This document shows positions 5,900 to 63,767 of a stretch of 64,000 nucleotides of DNA, in pieces (the first letter of the stretch is position 1; every line of letters starts with the position of its first letter). Where the stretch lies: positions 248,001 through 312,000 of the forward strand of contig WHUZ01000074.1 in the NCBI GenBank assembly GCA_015179045.1, read 5' to 3'. This DNA comes from Kalaharituber pfeilii. Taxonomy: Eukaryota > Ascomycota > Pezizomycetes > Pezizales > Pezizaceae. The notes below the pieces were generated by a model. It did not search any database and had not been told where the DNA came from. It saw nothing but the letters and a program-made list of their open reading frames with translations. The translations under genes and the position numbers were made by a program.

Positions 5900-5955
5900 T
5901 TTTTTTTTTTTGTTCATATCATTACTCGTATGCTGCCCTATGGGCTATGGCGAGG
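5900..5955 (-). mobile_element. Lineage-A hairpin micro-retrocopy
   Basis: A T run is followed by the reverse complement of the lineage-A LINE end (hairpin arms GCCC/GGGC inside CTCG/CGAG). It begins at the 5' foot of the stem. No clear target duplication was found, so it may be old. Confidence 0.65.
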
Positions 5956-6167
5956 TTCTAGATACATAGGATATAAGTGAAAAGGGAACAGAAAAATGAA
6001 TAACAGAATAACAGATTACTACTCCTCCAGATGATAGCGCTGCAACTTCTATAACAGTGTTGATATTATTGCTATTATTCATACCAGCTGTTACTCCAAG
6101 CCTGCTATCATTCATACGCACTGTCACTTATACTTGCTACGCACCACTAGTACCGTCTGCTATCTGT

Positions 6168-6374
6168 TATGGGCTCACCGCAACTATAGGCGGGCGGTTG
6201 GTAGATGCAAACATGACATGAAGAATATGTGATAGCCAATAGCGTTGCAGTCGTATAAATGAGTACTATATGAGCTACACAATAGACTAGTAAGCATCGC
6301 TAGTCAAGTATCTTTTTGGCCTGGCGGACGGTAACTCTCTACATTTAGTCTCTACATTTACCACCTCCATTACA
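6168..6374 (+). repeat. Dispersed ~200-bp repeat, copy 3
   Basis: Colinear with 4245-4476 and located inside the Mutator-like element. It contains GGCGGGCGGT near the start and GCGGACGGTAACTC near the end. Confidence 0.55.
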
Positions 6375-6402
6375 TTATCACTCATACCACTTGCTGGTAT
6401 TC

Positions 6403-6462
6403 TTTTTATTTTTTTTTTTTTTATATCATTACTCGCGTGCCGCCTGATAGGCTATAGCGAGG
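6403..6462 (-). mobile_element. Lineage-A hairpin micro-retrocopy
   Basis: 60 bp: a T-rich tail plus a hairpin-only copy. A perfect 12-bp target duplication TTGCTGGTATTC lies at 6391-6402 and 6463-6474. The inner stem reads GCCT/AGGC instead of GCCC/GGGC, a compensatory pair change. Confidence 0.93.
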
Positions 6463-6546
6463 TTGCTGGTATTCATACTCACTGTCACTCATATACCACC
6501 ACTCCTACCTGCTGTTGCACATACCTCCCGACATGATACCTTTCTG

Positions 6547-6848
6547 TAGTGAGCGGCACGAGCCGAGCCAGCTCGAGCTCAAACGAGCCAAGATCATGCT
6601 TGTGTTTTTCTTGACAGCTCGCTAAAATGCTTAGCCAGTGCAAGGTTTCATAAACTGTAAATACCTACTATAGTAATAATTAGAGACTTGGAGCTCATTC
6701 TGACCTACCAACAACTTCGAAATGCACAATTTAGCTGATAGTAGTGAGAAAGATGAAAATTTAGCTTAGTTTAGTTTAGTTTGTCAATATTATGATCCAA
6801 GCTCGAGCTCATGCCACGCCAGCTCGAGCTAGCTCGTGCCGCTCACTA
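6547..6848 (-). mobile_element. hAT-type MITE, copy 2
   Basis: 302 bp, same family as 4631-4997 but inverted and with an internal deletion. It has TAGTGAGCGGCACGAGC termini and a perfect 8-bp duplication CCTTTCTG (6539-6546 and 6849-6856). It is nested in the Mutator-like element. Confidence 0.9.
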
Positions 6849-9510
6849 CCTTTCTGCCCTATGGTCCTTGCATATAGTATAGAGCATATGTAGTTGTTAG
6901 CTTATATTCCAATATGTCTGTCGTGAAAATGCAAATGGATAAGTATGCAATAAACAATTACTAGTACAGTGTGTTGTTATTTTATTTATTTGGGGCTAAA
7001 GAAATAGAGATGATCAATTAGTCCCTACTAGTAGGTATTTGACTACTTAGTGTAAAAAATAATGCATGGATATTGCAAGCCTCATCCGTGCGTAGCAAGC
7101 CTCTACCAACTACATCAGTGCGCAAAAAATCTTTCTGCCCTATGCGTTGCCTACTGGCTGGCAGATCAAGTGAAAGCACTCTCAGACAAGCTGAGGCAAC
7201 CGGTATCTTGGGGCATTTCCATGGCCAGCTCGGACTCAAACTGAGGCCTAGGCTGAGACCAGGCGATCATAAGTGGGAAAAGCGGCCAGTGTGCGTACAG
7301 GCAGAAAGTGCCTGTCCCGAGAGGTTTTGGCCTGGATGATGTAAGAGGAGGCTTCAATATTGTGAGAGGAAGAGAGGTGTTGGAGAGGATTTGACAGGAC
7401 CCAAAGACGGCAAGATGGGAGGGGTGGCTGAGGGGCTTCTTCAACGAAAGAAGATTTACTGTGGAATGGGATGGTCAGGTACGGAGGGAGTGGAGGGCAA
7501 ACGTAGGAGTGCCCCAAGGATCTCCATTGTCGCCAGTCATTTTCCTTATATGGCTAGCACCCACATTGGAAAACCTGGAGAGAACCCTGAAAACGCAGAT
7601 TCCAGAGGTGGAGTTTGAGGTTCTGTCGCATGTCGATGACATTAATGAAACGGTATAGGACTGGGAGGGGGTGAAGGATCGAGAGAGACTGAGAGTCAGG
7701 GTATGAAACATTGTAAGCAGGGTTGCGGAGGAGCAAGGCATACTTCTAGAACCTGCAAAGCATGAAGATATCGTATTCGGTAGAGGAAAGCGAAGATGTA
7801 AAGTTGAAAGAGTAAAGTAGTTGAGCGTGATCTTCGATTCGACGCTCAACTTTGACTTCCATTGGAAGATGAGGATTGAGAAAGCAAGGAAGCTAACGGG
7901 GACGGTGATGGGGCTGGGGATAGGCTAGTAAGGTATGAGCTCGAGAGGTTGACAGCAGGTATACACAGGGATGATCAGGAAGGTAATACTATAGGGGTCA
8001 GAGATTGGCTGGCATGGACAGAAGGAATGGTGAAGGAAGATGGAGAAAAGTCAGTATTAGGTACTGAGGAAAACCACTGGAGCGGTATATGGAGCGGCGA
8101 GAGAGAAAGTCAATTGGATCGCCAGAGTAGAACCCATGGAAGTAGCATTGGATGCAGTGTAAGCAGGCTTTATTGCACGAAGCATCGGGGACCTGGAAGG
8201 ATGCAGAGATGTTTTGTCAGTGGACTTCTGGGGGGAAGGAGAAGAGGAGAGGGGGAGAGACTGGAAGGACTGGGACATCGGTTGGGCGATGCAGAAAGGG
8301 GGTGAATCCGATCGATCGCCGGAAGAATGCAAAGACCTGTCAGCTTCGTCATGCTGGAAGGAGTAGATGAAGTGTCATAGGGAGGGAGGTATGGAGTGGT
8401 AAATATGGAAGAAGCACAGAGGGAGGGACACAAAGGGGGAGGGAGAGAGGAATGGGAAGCGTCCATACACTAGACAACTCAAGAGACAGGAGCAATGTAC
8501 TCAGATGGCAGCATGAATGAAAAGGGGAGGGCAGGGGGGGGGTTGGAAATGGGATAGGGGAGGGGGTGAAGAAATGGGGACTGGGGTGACGGTGTGGGAT
8601 GGGGAGATCAGAGGCATGAGGATGGGGCTGGAGCAGGCGATACCGACTCCAGCAACTGTGGTAATCTTGACGGACTCACAGGCCATGATCACAGCGGTGA
8701 AGAAGGCAGGGAGCCGTGGCCAGAACCGGAGACCTGAATGGTGTGGTAGACCATATAGCAGAAAGAAGAAGAGGAGAGGTGAAGCTGGTGTGGGTGAAAG
8801 CCCACATTGGCATCCCAGGCAACGAGGCGGCAGACGCGGAGCCCAAGAAGGCAGCGGGAAGAATAAGGCGATCGGTAGTGACGGAAGGGGGGCTGCGGCA
8901 GGAGTGGAGAAGACTGTGCACAGCGGAAAGATGTGAACCGGGGTATGGAGGGGGCGCGGTGATGAGGTGGGGCAGGGGAGCAGGCACCACCTTCACAAGG
9001 CTGAGGACGGGAAAGGGGATGGGCAAGGAGTGGGACATGAAAATTGAAAGCGGTGGAGGGGAGTGTATGCGGGTGTGGGGAAAAGCAAACGGCAGACCAC
9101 CTGGCGTTCAGGTGCGATGAGGTGGCATACCCAGAAGGGTGGAGAACATGGACGGACTTCGAGGGGAGAAAGTGGGTGGAACAGCAGGAGAATGGGGAGG
9201 GGGTTGATATCCTCGAACAACTGTCCACTCTTTGAGGGCGTGAGAGGCGAAGGGAGTTCCGGGGGTGGGTGCGGGGCGGGGACAAAATTTCGTATATCTG
9301 AAGGTAGCGGTGGAGGAATGATGTAGAAATTTTTATTTGTCACGAGGAGGTGTGGCAGGGGGGGGGGGGGGAGATTTTCGTATGTAGAGTAGGCGGGGGA
9401 GGCGTAGATAGATATGCTTGCCTCCGAGCATTGAGGGTCTAGAATCAGGGGTCCTGCTATGGCGAACAGCTGCAAGCGGGATAACGTGAAAAAAAATAAA
9501 AAATAAAAAA

Positions 9511-10340: not shown

Positions 10341-10380
<40 letters not shown>

Positions 10381-14562: not shown

Positions 14563-14605
14563 ACGGCACGCGAGTAATGATATTGAAAAAAAAAAAAAAA
14601 AAAAA
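14563..14605 (+). mobile_element. Lineage-A micro-retrocopy, truncated inside the hairpin
   Basis: 43 bp including 18 or more A. A perfect 11-bp duplication GAGCACTGCAT lies at 14552-14562 and 14606-14616. It begins in the 3' half of the hairpin (ACGGCACGCGAG) rather than at the stem foot. Confidence 0.93.
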
Positions 14606-15639: not shown

Positions 15640-15696
15640 CCTCGCCATAGCCCCAGGGCGGCACGCGAGTAATGATATAAGAAAAAAAAAAAAAAA
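15640..15696 (+). mobile_element. Lineage-A hairpin micro-retrocopy
   Basis: The hairpin starts at CCTCGCC and is followed by poly(A). The duplication AACTACATACT lies at 15629-15639 and again directly after the A run (15697-15707). Both stems pair fully. Confidence 0.93.
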
Positions 15697-15795: not shown

Positions 15796-15843
15796 ATTTT
15801 TTTTTTTTTTAATATCATGCCGCCTGTAGGGCTATGGCGAGGT
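15796..15843 (-). mobile_element. Lineage-A hairpin micro-retrocopy, internal deletion
   Basis: A T run plus hairpin, with the duplication GATCTCTCA at 15787-15795 and 15844-15852. This copy lacks the 3' strand of the outer stem (8-9 nt), so it cannot fold fully. Confidence 0.88.
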
Positions 15844-16160: not shown

Positions 16161-16217
16161 TTTTTTTTTTTTTTTATATCATTAATCGCATGCCGCCCTA
16201 TGGGCTATGGCGATGTT
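16161..16217 (-). mobile_element. Lineage-A hairpin micro-retrocopy, ATCGC subtype
   Basis: The duplications GTATTAGGAGA (16150-16160) and GTAATAGGAGA (16218-16228) differ at one base. The outer stem is ATCGC/GCGAT, a double change relative to CTCGC/GCGAG that keeps pairing. Confidence 0.9.
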
Positions 16218-17053: not shown

Positions 17054-17110
17054 TTTTTTTTTTTTTTTTCATGTCATCACTCGCATGCCGCCCTATGAGC
17101 TATGGCGAGG
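17054..17110 (-). mobile_element. Lineage-A hairpin micro-retrocopy
   Basis: A perfect 11-bp duplication GAGGTAGAGGG lies at 17043-17053 and 17111-17121. The copy starts at the stem foot. The inner stem GCTC/GGGC retains pairing through a G-U wobble. Confidence 0.93.
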
Positions 17111-22647: not shown

Positions 22648-22741
22648 TGGACGTACGGCGAATCGAACGCCGGACCATCTCAAGTTTCGATGGGCTGAGC
22701 ACCTTTGCAAATGAGATATTATACCACTAAACCACACGCCC
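22648..22741 (-). tRNA. tRNA-Ala(UGC) with 22-nt intron
   Basis: The minus strand folds as a full cloverleaf. The acceptor stem is GGGCGTG/TACGTCC with discriminator A, and the D-arm is TGGTTTAGTGGTATAAT. The anticodon stem is TCTCA/TGAGA with loop TTTGCAA (anticodon TGC). The T-arm is CGGCG-TTCGATT-CGCCG. About 22 nt sit one base 3' of the anticodon, the standard nuclear tRNA intron site. The third acceptor pair is G3-U70, the alanine identity element, which supports the anticodon reading. An internal B box is present. A T4 run lies about 11 nt downstream of the 3' end (22633-22636) and would terminate pol III. It appears intact and is the only tRNA found. Confidence 0.92.
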
Positions 22742-25861: not shown

Positions 25862-25925
25862 GCCCTGCCATGGCGAACAGCTGCATGCGGGGTTACGTGA
25901 CAAAAAAAAAAAAAAAAAAAAAAAA
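25862..25925 (+). mobile_element. Lineage-B hairpin micro-retrocopy inside the SET gene
   Basis: Starts GCCCTGCC, the 5' foot of the lineage-B terminal stem (CCCTGC/GCGGGG), and ends in about 23 A. Duplications TCCTATGGCGGG (25850-25861) and TCCTATGACGGG (25926-25937) differ at one base. It lies directly after the codons for 'FSYAPP' of the SET domain. Confidence 0.93.
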
Positions 25926-27585: not shown

Positions 27586-27645
27586 CCATAGCCCATTGGG
27601 CGGCATGCGAGTACTGATATAAAAAAAAAAAAAAAAAAAAAAAAA
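27586..27645 (+). mobile_element. Lineage-A hairpin micro-retrocopy inside the SET gene
   Basis: Starts CCATAGCCC, slightly inside the hairpin, and ends in about 25 A. A perfect 12-bp duplication TCGGTGGTTCGT lies at 27574-27585 and 27646-27657. Confidence 0.94.
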
Positions 27646-27834: not shown

Positions 27835-27905
27835 CCCTCGCCATAGCCCTTAGGGCGGCACGCGAGTAATGATTTCCAAAAAAAAAAAAAAAAAAAAAAA
27901 AAAAG
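27835..27905 (+). mobile_element. Lineage-A hairpin micro-retrocopy inside the SET gene
   Basis: Starts CCTCGCC and ends in a long A run. A perfect 10-bp duplication GAAGTTTGCA lies at 27825-27834 and 27906-27915. Removing the insert and one duplication restores the frame 'HFVANFIANTLH' exactly. Confidence 0.95.
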
Positions 27906-39739: not shown

Positions 39740-40711
39740 GGGCACGTTAGAGACCCGAAACCCCCTACCCCTGGTCGCTCTCCCCACCCTACTGAAGGAC
39801 GCCGATTTAGAGGAATGGAACAGAACCATCGACGAAGCGGAAGACGAAGGCTGGAGAAGCGTCTACACGGATGGCAGTCGCATGGGGGGAAAATCCGGAG
39901 CCTGTACTTACTACCAGGGAACCAGGCAACTAATATACCTGGCCACAGGAAACGACATGGAGCTAATAGCGATGGGAGAGGCCCTGGATACTCAGGAGGG
40001 GGAGATCCTGATAATCTCCGACTCCAAAACGGCCCATATCCAAACTACAAAAGATTGCGGAAGGAAAACCCACATACGAAGGAGCATCACAAAGGGTCAG
40101 GGAACGTTGGGAAGTAAGAATAGCAAGAGGGGACTTGGACGTGGCGATAATGTGGGCGAAGGGGCACACGGGGATAGAGGGCAACATTGAAGCTGATAAA
40201 GCAGCAAAGACCGGTGCCCTCTTACAATACCAGGACGAGGTGGTCACGGAAGTGGGCGTGTGACAACAAGCAAAAGACAGAAGAGCGACAGAAAGCAACC
40301 GCCTCGAAATGAGCTACAGACCGCTCCAAAGACTATGTAGGCCACCGGCTGATGACACTAGCAGGCATTCTGGGGGGCAAGGGGCTGAGACAATGGAACA
40401 CAAAGTGGGCAAAGTGGACGGACCGGAGTGCAGGTGCTGTGGAGAAAAGGAGGAGACCACCGCATACTACTAGGAGAATGCAGATTTGGAAGGGCGAATG
40501 CCTCGCAGGCGAGAATGAACTCCTCAGGCCCCGAAAGGAAACGGACATCAACAAGCTGATGGAATGGGCGAGATAACAGGAATAGCGGGACAGGACGACG
40601 GACTTCTACTTTTTTCTCTTTCCACTTATCTTCCACTGTATTTCCATCATGTATCTAAAACATCGCCATAGCCCTTAGGGTGGCAAGCGATTAATGATAA
40701 AAAAAAAAAAA
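39740..40711 (+). mobile_element. Lineage-A LINE 3' fragment with RNase H
   Basis: Carries the RNase H domain with its acidic positions visible ('VYTDGSRMGGKSGACTYY', 'DMELIAMGEAL', 'LIISDSKTAH', then 'MWAKGHTGIEGNIEADKAAK' after a frame change). A finger 'CRCCGEKEETTAYY' lacks its last ligands. The 3' UTR, an ATCGC-type hairpin (40661-40700) and poly(A) end it. Frameshifts near 40090 and a TGA near 40262 inactivate it. The target duplication was not found. Confidence 0.8.
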
Positions 40712-41689: not shown

Positions 41690-41747
41690 CTCGCCATAGC
41701 CTAACAGGCGGCATGCGAGTAATGAAAGAAAAAAAAAAAAGAAAAAA
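41690..41747 (+). mobile_element. Lineage-A hairpin micro-retrocopy
   Basis: Starts CTCGCC. A perfect 11-bp duplication AGCTCCAGAGA lies at 41679-41689 and 41748-41758. The inner stem is GCCT/AGGC, the same compensatory pair change as at 6403-6462. Confidence 0.95.
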
Positions 41748-46591: not shown

Positions 46592-47014
46592 CACCGACAA
46601 CAACTTTTTCAGAACGAGCGCTTGGAAGAACTCCAACTTCCCGGCGCCTCCAGAACGTGAAAGTTATATCAAAGCGAAGCTCAGGACCGCCTGAGGAAGA
46701 ATACCTCATTTGATTTACAGAATTCAGAAGTTTAGGACTCGCTTCGTCAAGGCCAAGTTTTCTGAAGTTTTTCAGAGAATTCCCACACAAATCTCGAGAG
46801 GCAGGGACCCGCACCTAGGATCGCGCGATCGCTTCGGAGATCGGCCGATCGGCTGCAGAACGGGCGACCAAGAACAGTAATAGCGCAAACGAGCAACGAG
46901 CAGCGACCTTCCCTTTTCAGTCTTAGCAACAAGAGCTAGGATTGAAGCGGCGCACAGCCAGAAAAGGCAGGACTAAGCGAAGGTCACGAGAAGTTAAGGA
47001 AGTCAGGGAGCAGG

Positions 47015-47542
47015 ATGTCGGTGGAGGAGGAAGTACCAAAGATGCAGTTCTTGGGACCGGTAGGAGAGGGATGGACAGGGGAGGTATATGTAATGGACAG
47101 GAATACAGTGTGGGGGATAGACGCTATCCACACATGGGAAAGGAAGGATTGGTGGCTGGCGAGGCTGGGAGAGGGGGAGGATATGATTACGGTGAAAGAA
47201 AGAGTACAGAGGGCATACAGAAAGGGGGGAGAATATGATGGGAAGTTGGATATGATCGAAGAGATTAGAAAGGAGGCAGTAGAGGCAGCAGCGAGGAGGG
47301 GAGTAGAGGAGGTGGAGTGGGTGAAGACGGAGGAGCTCACAGGGATCGCGGAGGTAGCAAGGGTCGTAAAGCTCTGGAGTGAGGATGCGGCGATGTTCCG
47401 GAGGTATGTGGAGGGGGAGGATGGAATCGTGGTAGAAAGGGAGACAGAAGTTCTAAAGAACGCGACAAGGGAGTGTATCACAGTCAAGAGGGGACCGTTA
47501 GTGGTTTTCCAGAAGCAGCAACGGGTTCCTAGGGTCACGTGA
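47015..47542 (+). CDS. LINE ORF0, small protein of unknown function
   Basis: A 175-codon frame upstream of the gag-like ORF. The stop TGA (47540-47542) overlaps the ATG of ORF1 as TGATG, the configuration associated with stop-restart translation in some LINEs. The protein is Glu/Val-rich, mixed alpha-beta in appearance ('VYVMDRNTVWGIDAIHTW', 'WWLARLGEGEDMITVKERV', 'GIAEVARVVKLWSED'). I recognise no domain. Its openness and tight coupling argue that it is real. It could also be the N-terminal part of an ORF1 that once read through. Confidence 0.65.
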   Translation: MSVEEEVPKMQFLGPVGEGWTGEVYVMDRNTVWGIDAIHTWERKDWWLARLGEGEDMITVKERVQRAYRKGGEYDGKLDMIEEIRKEAVEAAARRGVEEVEWVKTEELTGIAEVARVVKLWSEDAAMFRRYVEGEDGIVVERETEVLKNATRECITVKRGPLVVFQKQQRVPRVT

Positions 47543-49659
47543 TGATGAGCTGGGGAAGGAGGAGGGAGAGGGGAGGCAGCAGGAGCAGGTCTCCATGCGA
47601 GGGAAGGGGAGGAAGGAGGGAAGGATTCAGGGATAGGAGCGGGGGGGAATGGGAGATCGGAGATTCACAGCTGGGCGTTGGGCCGGTGGCAGAGGCGCCG
47701 GCAGCAGCGCCGGTGCTAGCTAGGGTGGAGGAACGAGGAGAAGAGAAAGAAAAGGTAGGTGGAGCTGAGAGGGGAAAGGAGGAAGAGGACGATGAGGAGA
47801 TGGGGGAGAATGAGGAAGAGGAGGAGGACGAAGAAGGGGTGGGGAGGGAGGAGAAAGAGGTGCTAGCGCTCGTGCATGCGGCACAGGTGCTGGATGGGAG
47901 AGTGGACAAGCTGAGGAAAGAAGGGAAGGAAAGAGAGGCGAAGAGGCTGGGGGCAGCATGGGTATGGGTGACGGCAACTTTGGGGGAAGCTGCCTTTGAA
48001 AAAGGGTGGAAGGCACTGAAGGAGAAGGGGGGGGAAGGGGAGAGGGTGTTGGAATATAGGAGGAGGGCGAAGATGACGGGGAGGGAGATAAAGGAATGGA
48101 GAGAGGGGGTGAAAGAGGTCAGGAAGGAGTGGGAAGAGACTAGGGAGAGTGATATGGAGAAAAGAATGGGGAAGCTGGAGGGAATGGTCCTGGAGATACA
48201 TGCAGCGATGGGACTGGCATCGGTGAAGGAGGAAAGGGCACTGGAGAGGGAGAAGAAGAAGAGGGAGGAAGAGAAAAGGGAGGAGAAGAAGAGGAGAAAA
48301 AGAGAAGCAGAGATTCGGGAGATCCGGAAGCTCCAGGAGGAGACGGAGAAGAGAAAGAAGAGGGAGGAGGAAAGGTGGAGAAAAGCAGAGGAGGAGAGCA
48401 AGAAGAGGGTAGCGGAGGAGCGGAGGAAGGCGGTGGAGAGAGCACAGGTGCTGAGTAAGGTGGCAGAGGTGATGGAGATGCCGGCGGGATCACAGGAGGA
48501 GGTGGCAGCCCTGGAGGAGAAGGAGAGGAAGCTGAAGGAGGAGGAGGAGAAGGCGGCAAAGGAGGCGGAGAAGAGGATTGAGGGGGAGAACTGGACAGTG
48601 GTAAGGGGGAAGAAGCTGTGGAAGAGGATGCTGAGGACGGTACATGCGAAGCCGGTACCGTATGGAACGGAGGGGACAGAAGAGAGGGACGTCCTCCTGA
48701 AGAGGTGTGAATCTCTTTGGGAGACATCAGCGAAGGTGGAGGGAGAGAGGGGGTGGAGGGTAACACAGGTAACGAGGAATCCAGCGGCGTCGAAGTACGA
48801 GAGGGTATGGCTGCTGGTGGATATTCGGGAGGAGGAGAAAGCAAAGGAGGTAATGGAGAAATTCGGTGCATGGATGAGGCTGATCGTTGGCGAGGATCTC
48901 CTAAAGGTGGAGGTTCACAACAAGGATGCGGTCCCTCTAGTGATGAAGGGGGCGGATTATGAGGATGGGAGGGGAGAGGTGGAGGTGATGAGGAGAAAGC
49001 TGAGGGAGGAGAACCCGGATGTCAAGTTTGGGTCGAGACCACCAGTGCGCTTTGGAGTAGCGCCATCTATGGGTCCGCCGAGGGTGTCGCAGTTAAAGTT
49101 CGAGGTGGTGAATGCGGATGAGGCGGCGAAGGTGTTGAAGAAGGGGTTAGTGTGGAGGGGACAGAGGAGGGTGGTAGAAAGGTACCGACCGGGAGTGCAC
49201 ATGCAGGGGGATGGGCGGGCGAGCTATGCCAATATGGCGGCAGCAGGGGCAGGTCAGCAGGGGCAGCAGCAGCAGAGGGTGGACGTGTATCCAGGGGGGC
49301 AATCCATCCCACCGAGGGTGGCGGTGGCTTTCTTCCCGGGAGCAGGTCAGCAGGTGCAGGTGCAGGTGAGAGGAACGCAGGGGAGCAGCCAGGAGAGCCA
49401 GGGGACAGGCTGTTACAGGTGCGGAAAGAAGGGGCATCTGGCAAGAGAATGCAGATTCCAGAAGGGCCAGATGGCGTGCTATGCATGTGGCATGTGGGGC
49501 CACATTGCGAGATTCTGTCCAGAGAGACCGAAACCGGTGACTCCAAACCAGAGCCAGAAGAGGGAGAGGGTGGAAGAGACACCGATGATGAAGAAGCAAG
49601 AGGAGGGAAGCAAGGCGGTGAAGGTGGTAGAGGGGGGAAGGGCAAGGAGAAGGAGGTAG
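47542..49659 (+). CDS. LINE ORF1, gag-like RNA-binding protein
   Basis: ATG at 47542 (a second follows at 47545), giving about 705 codons. An acidic N-terminal third is followed by a long Lys/Glu/Arg coiled-coil region (roughly residues 200-330). A central fold region follows ('KYERVWLLVDIREEEKAKEV', then 'RLIVGEDLLKVEV'). Near the C-terminus are two CCHC knuckles, 'CYRCGKKGHLAREC' and 'CYACGMWGHIARFC'. ORF1 of LINEs binds element RNA to form the mobile particle. The listed frame stops at 49659. The frame that opens past a G6 run near 49632 continues with 'EVGMKETGVKLSSVLSENWD' to a TGA at 49901, which overlaps the ORF2 start. The longer product is therefore likely ancestral. Confidence 0.85.
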   Translation: MMSWGRRRERGGSRSRSPCEGRGGRREGFRDRSGGEWEIGDSQLGVGPVAEAPAAAPVLARVEERGEEKEKVGGAERGKEEEDDEEMGENEEEEEDEEGVGREEKEVLALVHAAQVLDGRVDKLRKEGKEREAKRLGAAWVWVTATLGEAAFEKGWKALKEKGGEGERVLEYRRRAKMTGREIKEWREGVKEVRKEWEETRESDMEKRMGKLEGMVLEIHAAMGLASVKEERALEREKKKREEEKREEKKRRKREAEIREIRKLQEETEKRKKREEERWRKAEEESKKRVAEERRKAVERAQVLSKVAEVMEMPAGSQEEVAALEEKERKLKEEEEKAAKEAEKRIEGENWTVVRGKKLWKRMLRTVHAKPVPYGTEGTEERDVLLKRCESLWETSAKVEGERGWRVTQVTRNPAASKYERVWLLVDIREEEKAKEVMEKFGAWMRLIVGEDLLKVEVHNKDAVPLVMKGADYEDGRGEVEVMRRKLREENPDVKFGSRPPVRFGVAPSMGPPRVSQLKFEVVNADEAAKVLKKGLVWRGQRRVVERYRPGVHMQGDGRASYANMAAAGAGQQGQQQQRVDVYPGGQSIPPRVAVAFFPGAGQQVQVQVRGTQGSSQESQGTGCYRCGKKGHLARECRFQKGQMACYACGMWGHIARFCPERPKPVTPNQSQKRERVEETPMMKKQEEGSKAVKVVEGGRARRRR

Positions 49660-49894
49660 GAATGAAGGAGACCGGGGTGAAGCTATCCAGTGTCCTGTCA
49701 GAGAACTGGGATGAAGAAGCGGCAAGGTTAGGAGGCTTCTTGAGGGAGAGGAGGGGGGGGGAGAGGATGGAGATAGATGCGAGAAGTGATTTGGAAGGAT
49801 CCAGACACCGACCTACCATTGAGTTGGGAGACATATTCGGGAGAGCGCCTCGGGATGGGTGGGAGGCTGAGAGTAGTGGGGTACCAAGTGCGTC

Positions 49895-51873
49895 ATGGTG
49901 AAGGTAGGGTACGTGAATGTGGGGGGGAGTAGCCTGGTAGAGCACGTGTGGAGGGAGAACGTTTTTAAGGAGCGGTGGGAGCTGGGTTTTGAGGGAGCGG
50001 TGTGGAAGAGGGAAGAGCAGACGGGGTGGAAAACAGGGTCACATCCAGGACTCACGAGGGTGGGAGCAGTGGGCCCGAGCACAAGGATTGTGGGCTGGAA
50101 AAGGGAAGAGAGAGAGAGAGAGAGAAGAGGGGGTGACAACGTAGTTTGGGGAAGGGTAGGGGAGGTAGTGGTAGGGGGGGTATATGTGGACGGGGGATGG
50201 AGGGAGGAGGAGTTTGAGGCGTGGTTAGAGAAGGTGTTGGAGGTGGAAGGGAAGTGTATACTCCTAGGAGACTGGAATGCACACAGCCCGATGTGGAGCC
50301 TCGAGGGGACTGGAGAGAGTGGGAGGGGGAGAAGGTTAAGGGAAAGGATGGAGGGAGCGGGTTTCAGCCTCAAAGGGGAACGAGCGGGGACATGGAGAAG
50401 GGAAGTCGAAGGGAGGCTAAGGGAGTCCAGGATAGATCTGGTGTGGACGAGGGGCTTGGAGGGGGTAGAGGTGGAGCTGTGGGAGGTGGGCTCGGACCAC
50501 TCGGCGCTAGTGGTGGATTTCGAGAAGAAGGGAGGGGGAGAGGGTGCCGAGGAGAGGGTGCGGGTGGACTGGGAGAAGGTGGAGAAGGAAGTGAAAGGTT
50601 GGGAGGGGGAGTGGGGAGAGGAGGAGAAGAGGGAGTGGCTGGAGAGAGTAGGGGACGGAAGTGCATATGAGAAGCTGAAGAGGTGGAAGGGGACGGTGGA
50701 GAGAAGGGTGAGGGTAGGGGGAAGAAGCAAGAGGTGGTGGACGGAGGAGATTGAGGAGATGAGAAAGGAGGTCAATAGAATGGCACGGGGAGGAGTAGGG
50801 GCCAGGGCAAGATTGACGGACGGGGAAAGGGTAAGGGGGAAGGCAGCAGTGAAAAGGATGAAGTGGAAGATCCGGGAGGAGAAGAAGAAGTGCTGGAGGG
50901 AGTTCGTGGAAGAGGAAGGGTATAGCGACCCGTGGAGGGTGGTGAGGGTGGCGAAGGACCCTTTCGGAGGAAAGGAGAGGATGGGAAGATTGAAAGATGA
51001 GGAGGGGAGGGAGTTGGAGGGGGATGGAGAGAAGGTGAGGACGCTGGTGGAGAGGAATTTTGCGTGGAGGGAAGAGGGGGACGGCAGAGGCGGGGGAGGA
51101 GGAGGGGGAGGGGGAAGCGGAGGGGGAGGGGACGAGAGGGAGAGGGAGAGAGTGGAAGGAGAAGTGAGGGCTGCGTTGCAGGGCACCAAAAACAATTCGG
51201 CACCGGGACCTGACGGAATCGGATACCGATTGATCAAAGCTGCCCTGAAGACTCCCATCAGAGATGAGTTAGTGAGGGAGATCGCCGAAAACTGGATCCG
51301 GAACAGAACCCCGGCGGAGTGGAGAGAGATGAGGGTCGTCATGATACCGAAGCCAGGCAAGGACATCAAGACGGCGAAAGCGTGGAGGCCAATCAACCTG
51401 ATTAATTGTATCGGGAAGATCGGGGAGAAAGTCATGGCCAGCAGGCTACAGAAAGAAGACCGACTCTTCCACAAGCTCCAGCTGGGAGCACGCAAGGGGA
51501 GGAATGCGATCCAGGCGATGGCGAGGGCGGTGACAAAGGTGCAGAGGTGCCTGCACAGGGGGGGGAGAGCAGCGTGGGTGACGGCGGATGTTAAAGGAGG
51601 CTTTAACATCGTGAGGAAGGAGGTGGTCCTGGGAAGGATTGAGGAGAGGGGGAGCGAGGGGGTGAGAAAGAAGCGGAGGTGGCTGGAGGAGTTTATGGGA
51701 GGCAGGGAGTTCGGAGTGTGGTGGGATGGCGAGGAGAAAGGGAGGGGCAGGTCGAACGTGGGGGTTCCGCAAGGGTCACCACTGTCACCGGTCATCTTCC
51801 TCATCTTTATGGCTCCCACCATTGAGAAGATGGAGAGAAGGCTGAGGGGGGTGGCGATGGGGGCGGAGGTAGA
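49895..51873 (+). pseudogene. LINE ORF2, endonuclease and RT N-terminal half
   Basis: ATG at 49895 overlaps the ORF1-extension stop (TGA at 49899-49901). The APE-type endonuclease covers about residues 1-230 ('VGYVNVGGSSL', 'LLGDWNAHSPMW', 'SRIDLVW', 'GSDHSALVV'), which nicks target DNA. After an acidic linker with a Gly-rich stretch, the RT fingers and palm begin ('NNSAPGPDGIGYRLIK', 'MRVVMIPKPGKDI', 'AWRPINLINCIGKIGEK', 'LGARKGRNAI', 'VTADVKGGFN', 'NVGVPQGSPLSPVIF'). The frame then shifts by one base at about 51873, immediately before the catalytic YVDD. Read in the original frame it ends at 51958 with nonsense sequence. Confidence 0.9.
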
Positions 51874-53511
51874 ATGCCATCGTATGTCGACGACCTGGCA
51901 GCAACGATCCTGGACTGGCACGGGTACTGTGATATGGGGCGGCTCAGGGAGAAAGTGAAGGTGGCAATGGCGGAGGTGGCGGAAGAAGATCAGATCCCGC
52001 TAGAGGAGTCGAAGTGGGAGATGATAACTTTCGGAGTGGGGAAGAGGTGGAAGAAGGAGGGGGAGATGCTGAAGTGGCTGGGAGTCATTTTCGATGAGAG
52101 GCTGACCTTCAGTGCGCATTGGCGAAATAGGCTGAGTAGGGCGAGGAGGCTGGCGGGGGCACTCTCAGGACTGGGAAACCGGGACTGGGGGATGTCACCA
52201 CGGAGCTGGCGGCAGGCGTACACAGGGATGGTGAGGGCGGTGGCGATGTGGGGGAGTGAGATCGGGTGGAGAGGCCAGAAGGAGTGGAAGAAGGAGATGG
52301 AGCGATTACAGCTGCAAGTTCTAAAGAGAGTAGCTGGAGGGGGGAGAGGTGCCGGGGTGGAAGGGGTGAATGCGGTTTGCGGAGTGGAAGACGTGGAGAC
52401 GGTCCTGGATGGCGCGCAAGCGAGAGCGATCGTCCGGGAGGTGGAGGCGCCGTCAGAGCTGGCGGAGCTTTGCACGGGCGACTTCGGAGGGAGTGAGGAG
52501 AGAGAGGAGGAGGCGAGAAACTGGAGAGACTGGGGGGTGCAGTGGGCGGTGGCCGAGAATGATGGGTATGAAGCAGTGCTGGACCGCTGGCAAGGTCAGT
52601 GGGCGAGGTTCACGGAGGAGGGGGAGGAGATCTCGTGGGGAGGGGGGTGTGAGAAGGTGGAGGTGGAGACCGCGGTGAGGCTGGGAAGAAAGAAGGGGGG
52701 AAGGGAGGAGTGGGAGACCTCGGTTGAGGAAGCCGGAAGAGGGAGGGCGGTCCTTTTCTCGGATGGCAGCAAGATCGAGGATAGCAAGGTGGGGGCGGGT
52801 GTATGGGGGAGATCAGCGGTGGTGGCGGAGGTAGTAGGGAGAACGGCGACGGTTTTTGACGGGGAGGTGAGGGGGGTGAGAACGGCGCTGGAGGGTGTAC
52901 CGGAGGAGGTACCGGTCCTGGTTTGCTTAGACTCTGAAGCTGCTGTCATGGCGATTCAGAAGGCAGGCAAGGAGGGAAAGGGAAAGACGGAGGATGTGAG
53001 AAGGGTGGTGAATGCGGTGGCGAGAAGAAAGAGGAAGGGGGGGGATGAGAAACTGTTGTGGGTAAAAGCTCACATCGGAATCGCAGGCAATGAGAAGGCG
53101 GATGAGTGGGCGAAGAAGGGGACGGTGATGCAGGGGAAGGAGGTGGCCACCGGAAGTGGGGTGCGCCAGAGGGTGAGGGCGTGGAGGAAGGAGAAGAGAG
53201 AAGTGGAGGGCTTTGGAGGAGGAAAGGTAATGGAGTGGAATAGGATAGCAGTATCCAATTTCACTGCCTTGCACCTGGAGAGAGGGAGGTGTGCAGTGTG
53301 GTTGAAGAGGATAGGGGCGGCTGAGTCGGATAAGTGCAGGTGCGGGGAGGTGCAAACCGGGGAGCACCGCGCTTTCCGATGCAGAAACCAGAAGAACAGT
53401 CCAGAAGGCTTTGAGAGGTGGGGCGACATGGAAAAGAATTGGAAGAGAAAGGCGGAGAATGGGGAGGAGTATGACGTTTTGGAGAATTTCTTCGCTGGGG
53501 TCAATTTCTAG
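51874..53511 (+). pseudogene. LINE ORF2, RT C-terminal half, RNase H and finger
   Basis: Continues ORF2 in the +1 frame, starting 'PSYVDDLAATILDW' (RT catalytic Asp pair). The RT thumb ('KWLGVIFDERLTFSAHW') and a linker follow, then RNase H with its acidic set ('LFSDGSKIEDSKVG' near residue 294, 'DGEVRGVRTALEG' 327, 'CLDSEAAVMAIQ' 350) and 'VKAHIGIAGNEKADEWAKKG' near 398. The C-terminal finger is 'CRCGEVQTGEHRAFRC' (about 487-502). It ends at a TAG. Every domain is otherwise open, so the element may have died very recently. Confidence 0.9.
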
Positions 53512-53579
53512 AAGGTAGGAGAATGCGGGGTCAAGTTCTAGAAGCTAGGAGAGCGGGGGCGACGGCGCGTGGAGGCCAT

Positions 53580-53694
53580 GTACGTAGAGAGTTAGTTTAG
53601 CCTGTCTCCGGGCTATGAGGGCTTGCCCAGGGACCCTGCCATGGCCAAGTGCTACAAGCGGGGTTAGGTGATTAAAAAAAAAAAAAAAAAAAAA
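53580..53694 (+). other. LINE lineage-B 3' end and terminal hairpin
   Basis: The common lineage-B tail: 'GCCTGTCTCCGGGCT', a short spacer, then the hairpin with outer arms CCCTGC/GCGGGG, then GGTTAGGTGAT and A(20). The same tail ends the copies at 9437, 25862, 36570, 39340, 54034 and 62430. Confidence 0.85.
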
Positions 53695-55599: not shown

Positions 55600-58500
55600 T
55601 TATAGGTTACCAATTGGTTCCCAAGTGTCCTCATCTTCGTTGTACCCCTGCCAGCGGATTCGGTATTTGACCTGGCCCCGGACCTTGCGGCTGTCGACGA
55701 CGTGGTCGACGTCGTAGTAGAGTTCTTCGTCATCATCAAGGTCTGTGTCGTCTCGACTTTGAAAGGGCTTAAGGAGGCTGACATGGATGACACTATGCAG
55801 TCGCATGCCTTTGGGCAGCTGAAGTTCATACGCATGACGACTGACAACCCTCTTCACTTCGTAGGGACCGATGTACTTCTTGGTGAGCACCCGGTTGTTG
55901 CCTGACTTAACTTGTAGGTTTCGCCGGTCAACAAGCACTTTGTCGCCCACTTTGAATTGCCTAGACTTCTCGGTGAAGAGCTTCGACCTCTTGTCATTAA
56001 TCTGCTTAAGAGTATCGTGTACCTGGTTGTGTACGGCAGTCATCCTATGTAACCAGTCCTCGGCCGCTGGTGAGGCGAAAGTGTGCTCGTCCGAGACATG
56101 TATCGTTTTTGGGTTGAATCCATACAGGCTCTCAAACGGAGTATAACCATGGGTCGATGACTTAGAAGTGTTGTACGCATACTCCGCTAGAGGCAACCAA
56201 GTAACTCAACGGTTTTGCCTATCATGACAGAAGATGCGTAAGTACTGCTTGAGGGTTTGTATTGCGCGCTCCGATAGTCCGTCAGTCTACGGATGGTAGG
56301 GAGTGGAAAGCCGAAGTTTGATACTGAGCTGCTGGTTGATATCCTTCCAACAGGCTGAGGCAAATTGCGGTCCTCGGTCAGACGTAATAGCTTGTGGGAG
56401 GCCATGGTGTCGCCAGATGTTGTTGATAAAGGCTGAAGCTACATCCGTGGACGTCCAAGTAGTCTTTGCTGGGATATATCGTTGGACCTTGGTAAAACGG
56501 TCCGTGATAACGAGGATCGCGTTGTAACCTTCAGATTCTGGTAACTCTCCGACAAAATCCATTGCTACTTCCTCAAAAGGCTTAACTCCAGTCGGCATTG
56601 GCATTAATTGAGTTTGGCGAGCATGCCGGTCAGCCTTCGCTTTTTGGCATGCTGTACAACTGGCAACGTATGTTTGTGTGGCTTCTTTCCATCCATCCCA
56701 GTAAAAGTTCCTGGATACCATCTCTTGAGTGCGATACACCCCCCAGTGCCCAGCCACTTCCGAATCATGGCATTGTTTCAGGACAGCTATTCTATGTTGT
56801 TCTGGTACCACCAGGAGCCCATCCCTTCTTTCCCAATCCTTGGTATCGATCCCTTCCACTTCAACCCCTTCTACCTCGATGGGATCGCCATTAATAAGTA
56901 ATTGCCTGTCTTTCAGGAGCTGAACTTCCAGGCCAGCGGATTCGTCACCGGTCTGACATGATATAGCGTCAGCCTTCCTGTTATCACTTCCCTTGCGGTA
57001 AATGATAGTAAAGTCCAACTCGCACATCTTCATGTACCAGTTGGCTTGCCGGGAGTTAAGCTTCTGCTTGGTGGTGAAGTACTGTAAGCCGTGGTGATCC
57101 GTATAAATATCGACATGTATCTCCTGCAGCCAGGTGTACCACTTTTTGCAGCAGTCGACTATCGCCAATAGCTCCTTGTCGTGGATGGGGTAGTTGCGCT
57201 CGGCTGCGTTGAGGGCTCGTGAGTGGAAGTCGACTGGGTGAAGCGTTTTAGTTGCGTTTTCCTCGTGATATTGGGACAGAATGCCAGCAAGGGCTTGGTT
57301 AGAGGCATCGGTTTCCATAATCGTCTTCAGGCTTCTATCCCATGGGCGCAGTACTGGGGCAGATATAAAGGCTTCTTTTAGCTCGTCAAATGACTGCTGC
57401 TGTGCGTCACCCCAAGAAAATGGTACGTTGCCTGTGAGGGTTGTAAGCGGTTTGGCTCTGGCGCTGTAGTTTTTGATGAAGCGGCGGTAATAGTTGGCGA
57501 AACCTAGGAATTTCTGGACTTCCTTCTTCTTAGTGGGTGTTGGCCAATCGGTGATAGTATTGAGCTTGTGAGGGTCCATCTTGATCTCCTTCCCATTGAT
57601 GATATGGCCAAGGAAGACTGTTTCTTGCACGTGGAATTCCGACTTGGCCAGGTTTATGGCTAGGCCATGGTCGAGTAGCAGTTGCAAGATTCATTCCACG
57701 ATTTTTTGATGTTCGGCCTCAGTCTGTCCTCCATGGACCAAGATGTCATCTAAGTACCATATAACGCCATCAACATCCTTCAGGATTTCGTCCATCATCT
57801 CCTGAAAACTCGCGGGTGTATTAACAAGCCCAAACGGCATAACGGTATACTCAAACAAGCCCTTCTTGGTTTTAAAGGCGGTCTTCCACTCATCGCCTGA
57901 CTTGATGCGAATAAGGTAATAGCCATTCTTAAGGTCCAGTTTGGTAAAGTATTTACTGCCGCGTGTCTTTTCCAGAAGGTCTGGTATGAGTGGGAGGGGG
58001 TACCGATTTGGTACCGTGATCTTGTTGAGGCCTCTATAGTCCACACATAAACGGAGAGAACCATCCTTTTTCCGGACAAAGAGTATATCGGTGCGCCAGC
58101 CGCGGATCTTGAACGCCGGATCTTACCGGTAGGCAGATGCTCTTCCAGGTACCTCTGCAGGGCTTCATCTTCCTCCCAGGTGGTCTTGTATATCGGGCCA
58201 TTAGGTACTCTAGCATTAGGATCATTTAGCGGGATCTCGTGATCCCAGAGTCGGTGGGGTGGTAGCCTGGCTGCTTGCTCCTCCGAAAACACTTGAGTGT
58301 AACATTCGTAACGTTCGCGTGCGTCAATCATTAGTAGTACATCGCCTTCTTCCAAGGGTTCTTTTGCCAAGTCTAAAACAGAAACCGAAGGTAAAACAAC
58401 CTCATCGCAAGGAACAACAAAATCACGGGAATTATGGACCAAACGCCTGTTTTCACAATCAACAGAGAAACCTTTTCTTCCTAACCAAGATAATCCTAAC

Positions 58501-58775
58501 AACACTTCTCTATCACCAATATCCAAACATTCTGCATCAAAGTCAAGTACAGTACTAGAGATCACATTACCTGATTTATCCTGAACGCCGGAAAAAGCAA
58601 ACGCAGTATTTAAGATCTTTGTTCCACCTTCCAGGGAGCTTCCGTCTCCCTGCCGTATATTTATGCGTCTAGCCCGGTCTTTCCAACCCAGTTTCCTACC
58701 TAAAGACAAAGAAACGACAGAAGCAGATGCACCAGGGTCAATGAGGGCTCGGATACTAGGTCGTTTTACAGTCAA
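55600..58775 (-). pseudogene. Gypsy chromovirus pol (PR-RT-RNaseH-IN-chromodomain), defective
   Basis: From 58775 downward: an aspartic protease ('IRALIDPGASASVVSLSLG'), then RT after a frame change near 58100 ('[17 protein letters not shown]', '[10 protein letters not shown]'). RNase H follows ('METDASNQALAG', 'HDKELLAIVDCCKKW', 'IYTDHHGLQYF'), then integrase ('CTACQKAK', 'AMDFVGELPES', 'ITSDRGPQFASACW', the third acid region 'ERAIQTLKQYL' after a stop). A chromodomain closes it ('YRIRWQGYNEDEDTWEP'). Three in-frame stops are visible: one CAG-to-TAG in integrase, and TGG-to-TGA changes near 57690 and 56204. Gag and the 5' LTR are missing. The frame ends upstream at a minisatellite. The chromodomain normally directs insertion to heterochromatin. 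Confidence 0.92.
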
Positions 58776-58794
58776 TTGCCATCGGGTTCGAGGT

Positions 58795-59860
58795 TGAGTT
58801 CGCGTACGCCAACTGAGCTGGCACCGGGTCCTTCAGTGAGTCCGCGTACGCCAACTCAGTTGGCACCGGGTCCTCCAGTGAGTTCGCGTATGCCAACTCG
58901 CCCACTGGGTCCTCCAGTGAGTTCGCGTACGCCAACTGAGCCGCCACCGGGTCCTCCAGTGAGTTCGCGTACGCCAACTCAGTTGGCACTGAGTCCTCCA
59001 GTGAGTTCGCGTACGCCAACTGAGCTGCCACCGGGTCCTCCAGTGAGTTGGCGTACGCCAACTGAGCCGGCACTGTGTCCTCCAGTGAGTTCGCGTACGC
59101 CAACTGAGCTGGCACTGGGTCCTCCAGTGAGTTGGCGTACGCCAACTCAGTTGGCACTGACTCCTCCAGTGAGTTGGCACTGAGTCCTCCAGTGAGTTCG
59201 CGTACGCCAACTCAGTTGGCACTGAGTCCTCCAGTGAGTTCGCGTACGCCAACTCAGTTGGCACTGGGTCCTCCAGTGAGTTCGCGTACGCCAACTCAGC
59301 TGGCACTGAGTTCTCCAGTGAGTTCGCGTACGCCAACTGAGCTGGCACTAGGTCCTCCAGTGAGTTCGCGTACGCCAACTGAGCTGGCACTAGGTCCTCC
59401 AGTGAGGTCGCGTACGCCAACTCAGTTGGCACTGGGTCCTCCAGTGAGTTCGCGTACGCCAACTCAGTTGGCACTGGGTCCTCCAGTGAGTTCGCGTACG
59501 CCAACTGAGCTGGCACTGAGTCCTCCAGTGAGTTCGCGTACGCCAACTGAGCCGGCACTGAGTCCTCCAGTGAGTTCGCGTACGCCAACTCAGCTGGCAA
59601 CTGAGCTGGCACTAGGTCCTCCAGTGAGTTCGCGTACGCCAACTCAGCTGGCACTAGGTCCTCCAGTGAGTTCGCGTACGCCAACTGAGCTGGCACTAGG
59701 TCCTCCAGTGAGTTCGCGTACGCTGGCACTAGGTCCTCCAGTGAGTTCGCGTACGCCAACTCAGTTGGCACTGGGTCCTCCAGTGAGTTCGCGTACGCCA
59801 ACTGAGCTGGCACTAGGTCCTCCAGTGAGTTCGCGTACGCCAGCTGAGCTGGCGCTGGAG
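58795..59860 (+). repeat. 42-bp palindrome-bearing minisatellite
   Basis: About 25 units of 42 bp. Each carries a near-palindrome CCAACTCAGTTGG (or CCAACTGAGCTGG) and GCGTACGC, joined by 'CACTGGGTCCTCCAGTGAG'. Because 42 is a multiple of three and units lack stops, several frames on both strands stay open over 300-400 codons. I treat these as artefacts. The array abuts the truncated Gypsy on the left and a LINE end on the right. Confidence 0.93.
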
Positions 59861-59871
59861 GAGAAAAGAAA

Positions 59872-60394
59872 GGGGATATGGGGGGGGCACAGTGATGGAG
59901 TGGCGAAGGGGGCCCGCAACGGCGTTCACAAGATTGAGAATGGGAAAGGGGATGGGGAAGGAGTGGGAAGTCAGGATTGGGAAAGCGATGGAGGGGAGTG
60001 TATGTGGATGTGGGCACAAGCAAACGGCGGACCACCTGGCGTTCAGGTGTGAGGAGGTAGAATACTTGGAAGGATGGGGAAGGTGGGAGGACATTGACGA
60101 CAAGAAATGGACGGTAGAGCAGGAGAACGGGGAGGTGGTGAATGCACTGGGAGAGTTTTTTGGTTCATTAAAGGTGTAGGGGAAGGGAACGAATTTTTCG
60201 TTTGTGTGAAGGTAGCAGTGGAAGAAAGTTGTAGCTATTTTTATTGCCTCGTGGAGGTGGGGCGGGCAGGGGTCGGGTTTTCGTTTATAGGGATGGTGGT
60301 GGAAGAGCTAGGGAGACAAGCCTGCCTTCGGGCTTCAAGGGTTTAGACCCAGGGGCCCTGCCATTTTTTTTTTTTTTTTTTGTCACATGACCCC
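59872..60394 (+). mobile_element. Lineage-B-like LINE 3' fragment with inverted end
   Basis: Encodes an ORF2 C-terminus ('TAFTRLRMGKGMGKEW', finger 'CGCGHKQTADHLAFRC', ending 'NALGEFFGSLKV') and a 3' UTR with 'AAGCCTGCCTTCGGGCTTC'. At 'CCCTGCCAT' (60363) the sequence switches to a T run and 'GTCACATGACCCC', the tail in reverse. This suggests an inversion during insertion. Confidence 0.78.
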
Positions 60395-60640: not shown

Positions 60641-60689
60641 ACGCATAGGCGCACTTATGCAAACTGATGAATCAGGATGTGGCACCCTG

Positions 60690-62335: not shown

Positions 62336-62680
62336 GTAATTCTAGTAGTGTCAACCAGTAAGCCCGAAGGCGTACTGATCAACGCTGGTTAATTCTGGTA
62401 GTGTCAACTAGTAAGCCCTAAGGCGTACTTTTTCTTTTTTTTTTTTTTTTTCCGCTAAGCCATGGCAGGGTCCCTGGGCAAGCCCGAGACAGGCTAAAAG
62501 AAAATTCCTGCCTCACCGCGCCGTTGACCCCCGCTCTCCTACCTTCTAGACCCTAAGGGGTTCACCAGACTACTAAGAGGTACTGATTAACGCTAATTAA
62601 TTCTGGTAGTGTCAACCAGTAAGCCCGGGTTAATTCTGGTAGCGTCAACCAGTAAGCCCGAGGGCGCACTCCTCAATGCT
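62336..62680 (+). repeat. ~50-bp tandem repeat interrupted by a LINE end
   Basis: Units 'TAATTCTGGTAGTGTCAACC' followed by 'AGTAAGCCCGAAGGCGTACT' occur before and after the lineage-B insertion at 62430-62572. Confidence 0.8.
62430..62572 (-). mobile_element. Lineage-B LINE 3' end, short copy
   Basis: A T run, the reverse-complement hairpin region and about 100 bp of 3' UTR (matching 53510-53660). Near-identical flanks CTAAGGCGTACT (62418-62429) and CTAAGAGGTACT (62573-62584). The 3' strand of the hairpin is shortened next to the T run. Confidence 0.82.
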
Positions 62681-62929
62681 GGTTGTATCATGCTATGGCT
62701 ATGAGTATCAGACGCATCGCCGATATGGAGCAAATGACCCAATGAGCTCAATGAGCGGCCCCACGTGGGGTCTGATGAAGAGCCCAATGCATGGCCTGAG
62801 GAGGTGAATTCAATGACAGCAGATTCCGGCGCCCCTTGTTGCACTAGCGTGAGATTTATCCCAAATCAGCAATGTCCTAACAGGGCAGCTCTGGCATACT
62901 GTGATGTTGCCAGATTGAGATAATGACCG

Positions 62930-63160
62930 CCCTGAAGATATTGGGCACAGTGGGCCAATTGAGCGTATTGAGCATGCTGAGCACGGGTATGAGATACAGA
63001 GATTAGTGAATATTAGGCATATTGGGCATATTGAGCCTATTCAGCATATTGGGCGTGAATTCGCCGGGAATTGACCACTTTCGCAGTGCACGTGAGATGT
63101 TGGACATATTGACCGCGCATATAAGATGTAGAGAATATTGAGCACATTGAGCGGTTGTTC
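62930..63160 (-). repeat. Degenerate 9-bp repeat
   Basis: Irregular copies of ATATTGGGC/ATATTGAGC. Confidence 0.65.
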
Positions 63161-63199
63161 TCATCCAAATGGTTTCTATGGGAAATATGAATATTGTGA

Positions 63200-63600
63200 A
63201 TAATTTCACAACCACTACAGTTATTACCTAATTACGTTGTTCATAGTTTCCGACTGAGTGATGCTATTGAATGTGAGTGTCTGAGTTTTTTTCATGAATT
63301 GATTGCAGGTGTAGCATGCAGAATTCGGGGGTGGTGATATTTGTATGGAGATCCCATACAACTAAATGCCAAGCCTTCCAACAAAAATGTGACAAGCCAT
63401 AAACCCTTTGCAACCACAATTTTTGATGAAGAGAAGGTGCTAGATAGCAAGAATTACACTATGTGTAATAGCTACACAAAGTGCATTCACAAATGCTGTT
63501 GTGGTTGTTAAGATATTGAGTGCGAAAGTTGTGCAGTTTTGGTGGTAAATGTGTCCGGGAAAGTGGGGTGTCCGGGAAAGTGGTGAACCACAGTATATGA
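63200..63600. other. Possible mariner-like MITE relic
   Basis: 'ATGCCAAG', 'TTGTATGGAGATCCCATACA' and an end 'GGTGAACCACAGTA' resemble parts of the element at 23457-24303. Boundaries are not defined. Confidence 0.35.
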
Positions 63601-63710
63601 CAAGGGCATTTGCGACGTATTCACTATGCCGTGGTTAACTGCTATAGCGACCAGTGCGAGTGCTATTTTGCCTGGCCTTGGCAAACTGGCACTCGACAGT
63701 TGTGCGGTGA

Positions 63711-63767
63711 ATCGCCATAGCCCATAGGGCGGCATGCGATTAATGAAATAAAAAAAAAAAAAAAAAA
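63711..63767 (+). mobile_element. Lineage-A hairpin micro-retrocopy, ATCGC subtype
   Basis: Starts ATCGCC. Outer stem ATCGC/GCGAT, inner GCCC/GGGC, then poly(A). A perfect 12-bp duplication GTTGTGCGGTGA lies at 63699-63710 and 63768-63779. Confidence 0.95.

Follow-up and report, generated by a model that had tools for sequence, protein, structure and literature searches.

Hairpin-only retrocopies of LINE 3′ ends in Kalaharituber pfeilii start at stem feet, suggesting retrotransposition of short RNA fragments

Several described products of LINE activity resemble the short insertions reported here. With 5′-truncated LINE copies made by target-primed reverse transcription (TPRT) they share the LINE 3′ end, A-tail, target-site duplications (TSDs) and a similar target preference, but the starts of truncated copies scatter, whereas here they concentrate at stem feet. 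SINEs are short and non-coding, with a LINE-like tail, TSDs and many copies. The hairpin copies have the same shortness, absence of coding sequence, tail, TSDs and high copy number, yet SINEs are usually 150-300 bp long and pol III-transcribed (PMC8466645), whereas the hairpin copies measure ~40 nt, lack clear pol III boxes and share haplotypes with LINE-attached copies. In the stringent LINEs of zebrafish (ZfL2), the ORF2 protein binds its cognate 3′ stem-loop (PMC4176376); a stem-loop at the LINE end is common to both systems, and here covaries in lineage A, but in the present case the stem-loop alone seems to be copied, and its binding by protein would follow by analogy. Tailless retropseudogenes and truncated snRNA retrocopies likewise derive from small structured RNAs, carry TSDs and have ends that are not random; they are, however, 3′-truncated, lack A-tails and end in loops (PMC5322556, PMC4476161), whereas the hairpin copies are A-tailed and 5′-defined at stem feet. 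For R2, a stable fold at the 5′ end of the template is proposed as a barrier to 5′-3′ exonucleases (PMC11331408), resembling the decay-resistant fold proposed below for the hairpin, but the R2 fold is an HDV-like ribozyme, and five loci scanned here gave no Rfam match at gathering score. A literature search of open-access articles in one collection found no published description of hairpin-only LINE retrocopies.

The window, a 64-kb stretch (C333:248001-312000), belongs to a 78.0-Mb assembly of 360 contigs, the one genome searched. A search for Chloroa_b-bind came up empty and so gives no sign of a photosynthetic host; among the 120 gamma-tubulin hits listed, the best stands at 92%, and the closest that bears an organism name is from the fungus Caulochytrium protostelioides (69%). 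A sequence-only reading of the window had listed eight insertions made of a terminal LINE hairpin plus poly(A), with starts near the 5′ foot of the stem. All eight are present and every one carries a TSD, although the duplications span 9-17 bp rather than the 9-12 bp claimed; with the C of CTCGCC as coordinate 1, the starts (0, 0, -1, +4, 0, -1, +1, +1) agree with the proposed position. These lineage-A copies lie at 6403-6462 (minus strand; 12-bp TSD GAATACCAGCAA at 6391-6402 and 6463-6474; start 0), 15640-15696 (plus; 11-bp TSD AACTACATACT; start 0), 15796-15843 (minus; internal deletion in the hairpin; 9-bp TSD TGAGAGATC and start -1, values from a separate TSD analysis because this copy falls under the score cut of the main search), 16161-16217 (minus; ATCGCC type; imperfect 17-bp TSD with 2 mismatches; start +4, because the TSD identity extends into the element), about 17054-17110 (minus; 12-bp TSD ACCCTCTACCTC; start 0), 27835-27905 (plus; 10-bp TSD GAAGTTTGCA; start -1), about 41690-41747 (plus; CCT/AGG inner stem; 12-bp TSD AAGCTCCAGAGA; start +1) and about 63711-63767 (plus; ATCGCC type; 13-bp TSD AGTTGTGCGGTGA; start +1).

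Further plus-strand copies were absent from that list: a lineage-A hairpin-only copy at 27586-27645 (start +5; TSD TCGGTGGTTCGT), a lineage-A copy at 14563-14605 starting within the hairpin (+19; TSD GAGCACTGCAT), and lineage-B hairpin-only copies at 25863-25924 (TSD ATCCTATGGCGGGG, one mismatch in the right copy) and 36570-36631 (TSD AGTAGGTCTCTCTTG). Starts around the loop or 3′ arm (+11 to +25) form a minor TSD-flanked class, to which 14563-14605 belongs together with copies at L030 1303, L032 2871, L023 514 and L029 1698. A few bases separate two lineage-A hairpin-only copies at L016 1428-1536, which are oppositely oriented and have separate TSDs. The window also holds a LINE (47533-53694, plus strand) with CCHC, endonuclease-RT and RNase H frames and a B-type hairpin (53631-53671) followed by poly(A), a LINE of the sort that the hairpin-only copies imply as their enzyme source, and the 3′ part of an A-type LINE (39411-40702, plus strand), in which an RNase H frame (39411-40190) precedes a lineage-A hairpin (40663-40702).

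Genome-wide, the lineage-A hairpin pattern CATAGCCCNNAGGGCGGCAYGCGANTAATGATAT has 6750 matches (3409 + 3341) at up to three mismatches, and the lineage-B pattern CCTGCC(A/T)TGGCGAACAGCTGCNNGCGGGGT(C/T)ACGT has 3198 at the same tolerance, with 0 matches to the reversed control for A and to the control for B. The lineage-A sample comprised the 100 pattern places listed, taken as 3-kb loci in 30 cases and as 754-base stretches in 70, together with 8 DNA-search loci (one in the window) and, on contig C1, ten stretches of 1.5 kb placed at round coordinates; the lineage-B sample comprised 30 loci and 40 stretches at 70 of the 100 pattern places listed. Since the listed places are exact matches on the first contigs (C1-C18 for A), the sample is non-random, and copies not picked by pattern were tallied separately. 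TSDs were called by a scored ungapped search pairing the sequence after the A-tail with upstream sequence (strong TSD, score >=10), and the null paired each copy with the downstream flank of another; start coordinates in hairpins with indels may be 1-2 bases off. Upstream sequence mostly extended over 400-1500 nt, so long copies are under-called, and the foot share is therefore not a genome frequency. Strong TSDs flank the A-tailed inserts in 97/211 A and 71/127 B copies, against about 8.9 (per 211) and 7.5 (per 127) with swapped flanks, ruling out chance TSDs as the explanation, as expected for products of LINE-mediated TPRT; in other copies LINE sequence precedes these hairpins, as expected of inserts drawn from a LINE 3′ end. 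Extending the sampled foot shares to all pattern matches would put the number of hairpin-only copies near 1,450 for A and 1,480 for B, an extrapolation from the TSD-confirmed shares of selected, non-random samples (23/107 A and 30/65 B).

Start points in lineage A fall into distinct groups. Among the 97 TSD-bearing copies, 49 start at the foot (-4 to +8), 42 are long LINE copies, two start at -47 to -5 and four inside the hairpin, one of which (L091) is an artefact whose 'TSD' is another hairpin. The swapped-flank null gives 0.2 foot, 7.3 long, 0.6 near-upstream and 0.8 inside starts per 211 copies, so that a few of the long calls are due to chance. The excess at the foot is that anticipated by the sequence-only reading, as far as this sample of the genome goes, and it appears in copies not chosen by pattern (48/104 with TSD: 26 foot, 18 long, four inside, none near-upstream) as in those that were (49/107: 23 foot, 24 long, two near-upstream). 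In an earlier 191-copy set, 41 starts occupied 13 foot positions as compared to 29, counted by hand from the printed start list, over the 452 nt from -49 to -500, a ~49-fold density per nucleotide that rules against ordinary random 5′ truncation, from which scattered starts would be expected; the histogram of this set peaks at -1 to +2 and is empty at +6 to +10. The foot sequence in lineage A is (AC)CTCGCC or ATCGCC, and starts spread over -3 to +5: CTCGCC-type copies often retain the templated C or AC ahead of CTCGCC, while ATCGCC-type copies start mostly at the A, 3/11 sharing 3-4 nt with the target. Three copies called long in an earlier pass (L020, L040, L038) resemble free copies by eye. 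Target sites of short and long copies are similar: a pyrimidine precedes the TSD, and the TSD itself opens most often with A, otherwise with some other base that is seldom C. Haplotypes of short (27) and LINE-attached (67) A copies did not differ significantly (permutation p 0.14) in a test of 94/211 copies, with 59/211 left between short and LINE in the classification, so a single SINE master for this lineage is unsupported.

Lineage-B LINEs end in a hairpin related to that of lineage A, and the same foot spike, missing from the earlier list, recurs there. The 71 TSD-bearing copies comprise 49 foot, 17 long and five near-upstream starts (swapped-flank null, 0.2 foot and 6.4 long), and the 26 among them not chosen by pattern comprise 19 foot, five long and two near-upstream. 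The five are three ~80-nt copies plus L171 and L122, which, though scored off the foot, by eye are ordinary foot copies starting at the usual G. Start precision is markedly high in this lineage, where the B2 foot sequence is GCCCTGCC: of 54 free-standing copies that fall in the foot window with a TSD score >=9, 52 are compatible with a single first template base, which precedes CCCTGCC and is read as G in 49 and A in three, so that a single 5′ end, as expected of a discrete RNA, is seen in B, while A starts spread over several nucleotides. The other two (L140 371, L148 2891) start 1-3 nt inside and were left out of the junction count. Of the 52 junctions, 18 are direct, 13 have TSD identity reaching 1-5 nt into the element, a 25% share equal to chance, and 21 carry 1-6 extra bases, which are T or C in 36/47 cases; the extra base adjoining the foot equals the LINE template in 4/21, no more than chance. 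Being untemplated, these bases argue against random drop-off near the foot, which would leave a templated G or AGGG, and B starts fit a template with its end, or a block, at a single nucleotide. Junctions of long truncated copies show microhomology above chance (15/32, p 0.006), but the direct contrast between short and long copies is weak (microhomology, p 0.056; extra bases in 21/52 short and 8/32 long copies, p 0.17) under a scripted rule that excluded TSDs longer than 18 nt as well as copies whose homolog boundary did not fall within -6 to +5; an earlier contrast with hand-picked boundaries had given p about 0.02 both for extra bases (21/52 vs 4/27) and for microhomology (13/52 vs 14/27), but was weakened by this rule and is superseded. 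A second hairpin, AAGCCTGCCTCCGGGCTT, lies upstream of the B hairpin, and the ~80-nt copies (L125, L135, L141), three in number, start at the first A of its stem with 0, 1 and 2 extra bases, respectively; a copy at L132 1858 resembles them, with no TSD above threshold.

Analysis of the hairpins themselves relied on single-sequence folds, since RNAalifold on raw alignments returned only weak, misplaced stems (-1.3 and -0.2 kcal/mol). The A hairpin folds into an outer stem of 5 bp and an inner stem of 4 bp. When canonical pairs on this fold were compared to shuffles that take no account of copy relatedness, the outermost pair 1-30, around which A starts cluster, was found to swap C-G/A-T across 145 distinct copies (135/145 canonical, against a mean of 80 and a maximum of 103 in the shuffles), the inner pair 13-17 to swap C-G/T-A (142/144; mean 131, maximum 135), and pair 5-26 to lie slightly over the shuffles (138/144, maximum 137), with no excess for the remaining six. 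The covariation of pairs 1-30 and 13-17 indicates a conserved 3′ stem-loop, as in the tails of stringent-type LINEs. None of 11 tested pairs in the B hairpin exceeds the highest of 500 shuffles, and pair 2-35 is unsupported, but B pairs barely vary and hence say nothing on covariation. Measured against shuffles, the folding energy is moderately favourable for A (z -2.07, -1.92), less so for B2 (-1.05, -1.19), and not for the 80-nt forms (-0.43, -0.65). A known RNA family as source found no support in an Rfam scan of five loci (12 sub-threshold matches, none reaching its gathering score), and a tRNA origin was rejected as the one ARAGORN call in the window lies away from any hairpin; the program's tRNA-like gene at 22648-22741, with a four-base anticodon (gcaa), is probably spurious.

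The tendency to form hairpin-only copies depends strongly on the B subfamily, as revealed by an exact-haplotype tally of 67/127 B copies. B1 (A..GTTACGTGA) accounts for 18 LINE-attached copies and one short copy, and B2 (G..GTCACGTGA) for 30 short, two LINE-attached, one 80-nt and three unassigned copies; an intermediate form (G..GTTACGTGA) contributes seven short, two LINE-attached and two unassigned copies, and one further B copy is LINE-attached. Thus 37/38 free-standing copies have G-type haplotypes, whereas B1, with a hairpin nearly identical to that of B2, is LINE-attached in 18/19 (Fisher test, 18:1 vs 3:30, 5e-10). Genome matches with up to one mismatch follow an upstream CAGGG in 251/388 cases for B1, a rough minimum, since TAGGG stands there in several B1 copies and G-type copies enter at one mismatch, and in 38/220 and 36/325 for B2-TTGG and B2-CACGC, sets that overlap at one mismatch, so both counted B2 haplotypes also occur beside LINE sequence, at similar low shares. 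Long B2 copies do exist (L153 and L179, 82% identical over ~460 nt), and the 3′ part of a diverged B2-type LINE in the window (approximately 9030-9493, plus strand) is 68-72% identical to these two. Copies consisting of the hairpin alone from another B subfamily, with a GGCCAAGTGC loop, occur beside the usual type at L155 (292 and 399) and L184 (321 and 156), and a third B subfamily therefore also produces them. At L130 (1539 and 2154), a B1 LINE copy appears to be inserted in a B hairpin-only copy (TSD CGGGGTCACGT), giving the order of events.

The sequence-only reading had offered two explanations for a shared start, of which an RNA with its 5′ end at the hairpin base before TPRT fits best, because of the near one-nucleotide B starts, the off-template extra bases and the starts at three stem feet, while an ultra-short SINE with its own gene fares poorly. 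Judging from the DNA copies, it is somewhat probable that the LINE machinery retrotransposes RNA fragments whose ends lie at hairpin feet. LINEs of two related lineages terminate in a short, conserved RNA hairpin and a poly(A) stretch, the hairpin probably serving, by analogy with stringent-type LINEs, as recognition tag for the LINE protein. A share of the LINE RNA may be shortened from its 5′ side to the stem foot, either through 5′-3′ decay that stalls at the fold or its bound protein, or through cleavage at the foot. Since the ~40-nt hairpin and tail would still form a complete tag, the protein could nick DNA, prime at the A-tail and copy the fragment to its 5′ end, sometimes adding 1-6 untemplated bases, and joining of the cDNA would leave a TSD-flanked hairpin-only copy. 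Direct observations in support are the TSD-flanked copies, the foot spikes, the near one-nucleotide precision and haplotype dependence in B, and the covariation in A. The spikes, far over the null in two lineages (49/97 and 49/71 against 0.2 each), argue for such fragments, as do the ~80-nt copies at the next stem foot, the covarying A pair 1-30, the similar targets of short and long copies, and microhomology at chance in B short junctions but above chance in long ones. Untemplated bases without a microhomology excess fit the end of a template, but extra bases are also reported at truncated inserts in published LINE assays and are no proof of it (PMC4245944). Against this reading stand the A starts spread over -3 to +5, with some junctions sharing 3-4 nt with the target as abortive synthesis gives, the weak short-versus-long contrasts, the 2/54 B starts inside the hairpin, and the escape of B1 from shortening, which it does not account for; the unexceptional stability of the B hairpin weakens a purely fold-based exonuclease block.

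The main rival is abortive TPRT, in which a full-length LINE RNA is the template and the enzyme releases after the hairpin, either because it still holds the tag or because a bound protein or modified base blocks it, and the short cDNA is joined. The spread and often templated A starts, and the sampling of LINE haplotypes by A free copies without significant bias, agree with premature release, and a poorly processive, subfamily-specific enzyme could perhaps explain the difference between B2 and B1. However, near one-nucleotide B starts with off-template bases call for a hard stop, a variant this rival includes, B short junctions show no excess of microhomology over chance, and nearly identical hairpins behave as 18:1 vs 3:30; overall, abortive synthesis appears rather unlikely. 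Few exact haplotypes and a common start base among B free copies are what a handful of source genes would produce if they transcribed an independent ~40-nt SINE borrowing the LINE enzyme, but both counted B2 haplotypes recur in LINE context and A copies lack significant haplotype bias. No pol III boxes exceed shuffled expectation: B boxes in the ~40-nt forms are found at 5 mismatches, and the A-box match of A copies, which has 2 mismatches, is equalled by 66 and 56 of 500 shuffles. Overall, the independent SINE is improbable. Trimming of a long cDNA by a host structure-specific nuclease, cutting at the foot of a DNA hairpin before second-strand joining, would also place ends at stem feet, but should strike B1 as it does the nearly identical B2 hairpin, which it does not, and is very improbable.

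Returning to retrotransposed RNA fragments, a stronger version, tentatively held and slightly more doubtful than otherwise, is that in B2 the unit that moves is, for the most part, a discrete polyadenylated hairpin RNA of ~40 nt, bounded precisely at the stem foot on its 5′ side, rather than the LINE. Such an RNA would be the smallest known to have spread so widely, and hairpin and A-tail would be a sufficient template. The minimal RNA needs of LINE enzymes are usually probed by tail mutation in cell culture; if a ~40-nt hairpin plus A-tail does suffice for the enzyme, nature seems to have run that experiment many times. The sharp starts render LINE 5′-end formation testable, as template end versus enzyme release, and B1 versus B2 offers a natural near-isogenic contrast. 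Elements this short may be numerous and easily overlooked by repeat annotation. Other mobile elements share the window, including DDE_1 and HTH_Tnp_Tc5 frames of a DNA transposon at 44663-46814, which we take to be pogo/Tc5-like, and LTR-type pol and protease frames (RT RNase H, integrase) at 56287-60164, near a 42-bp tandem array at 58795-59858.
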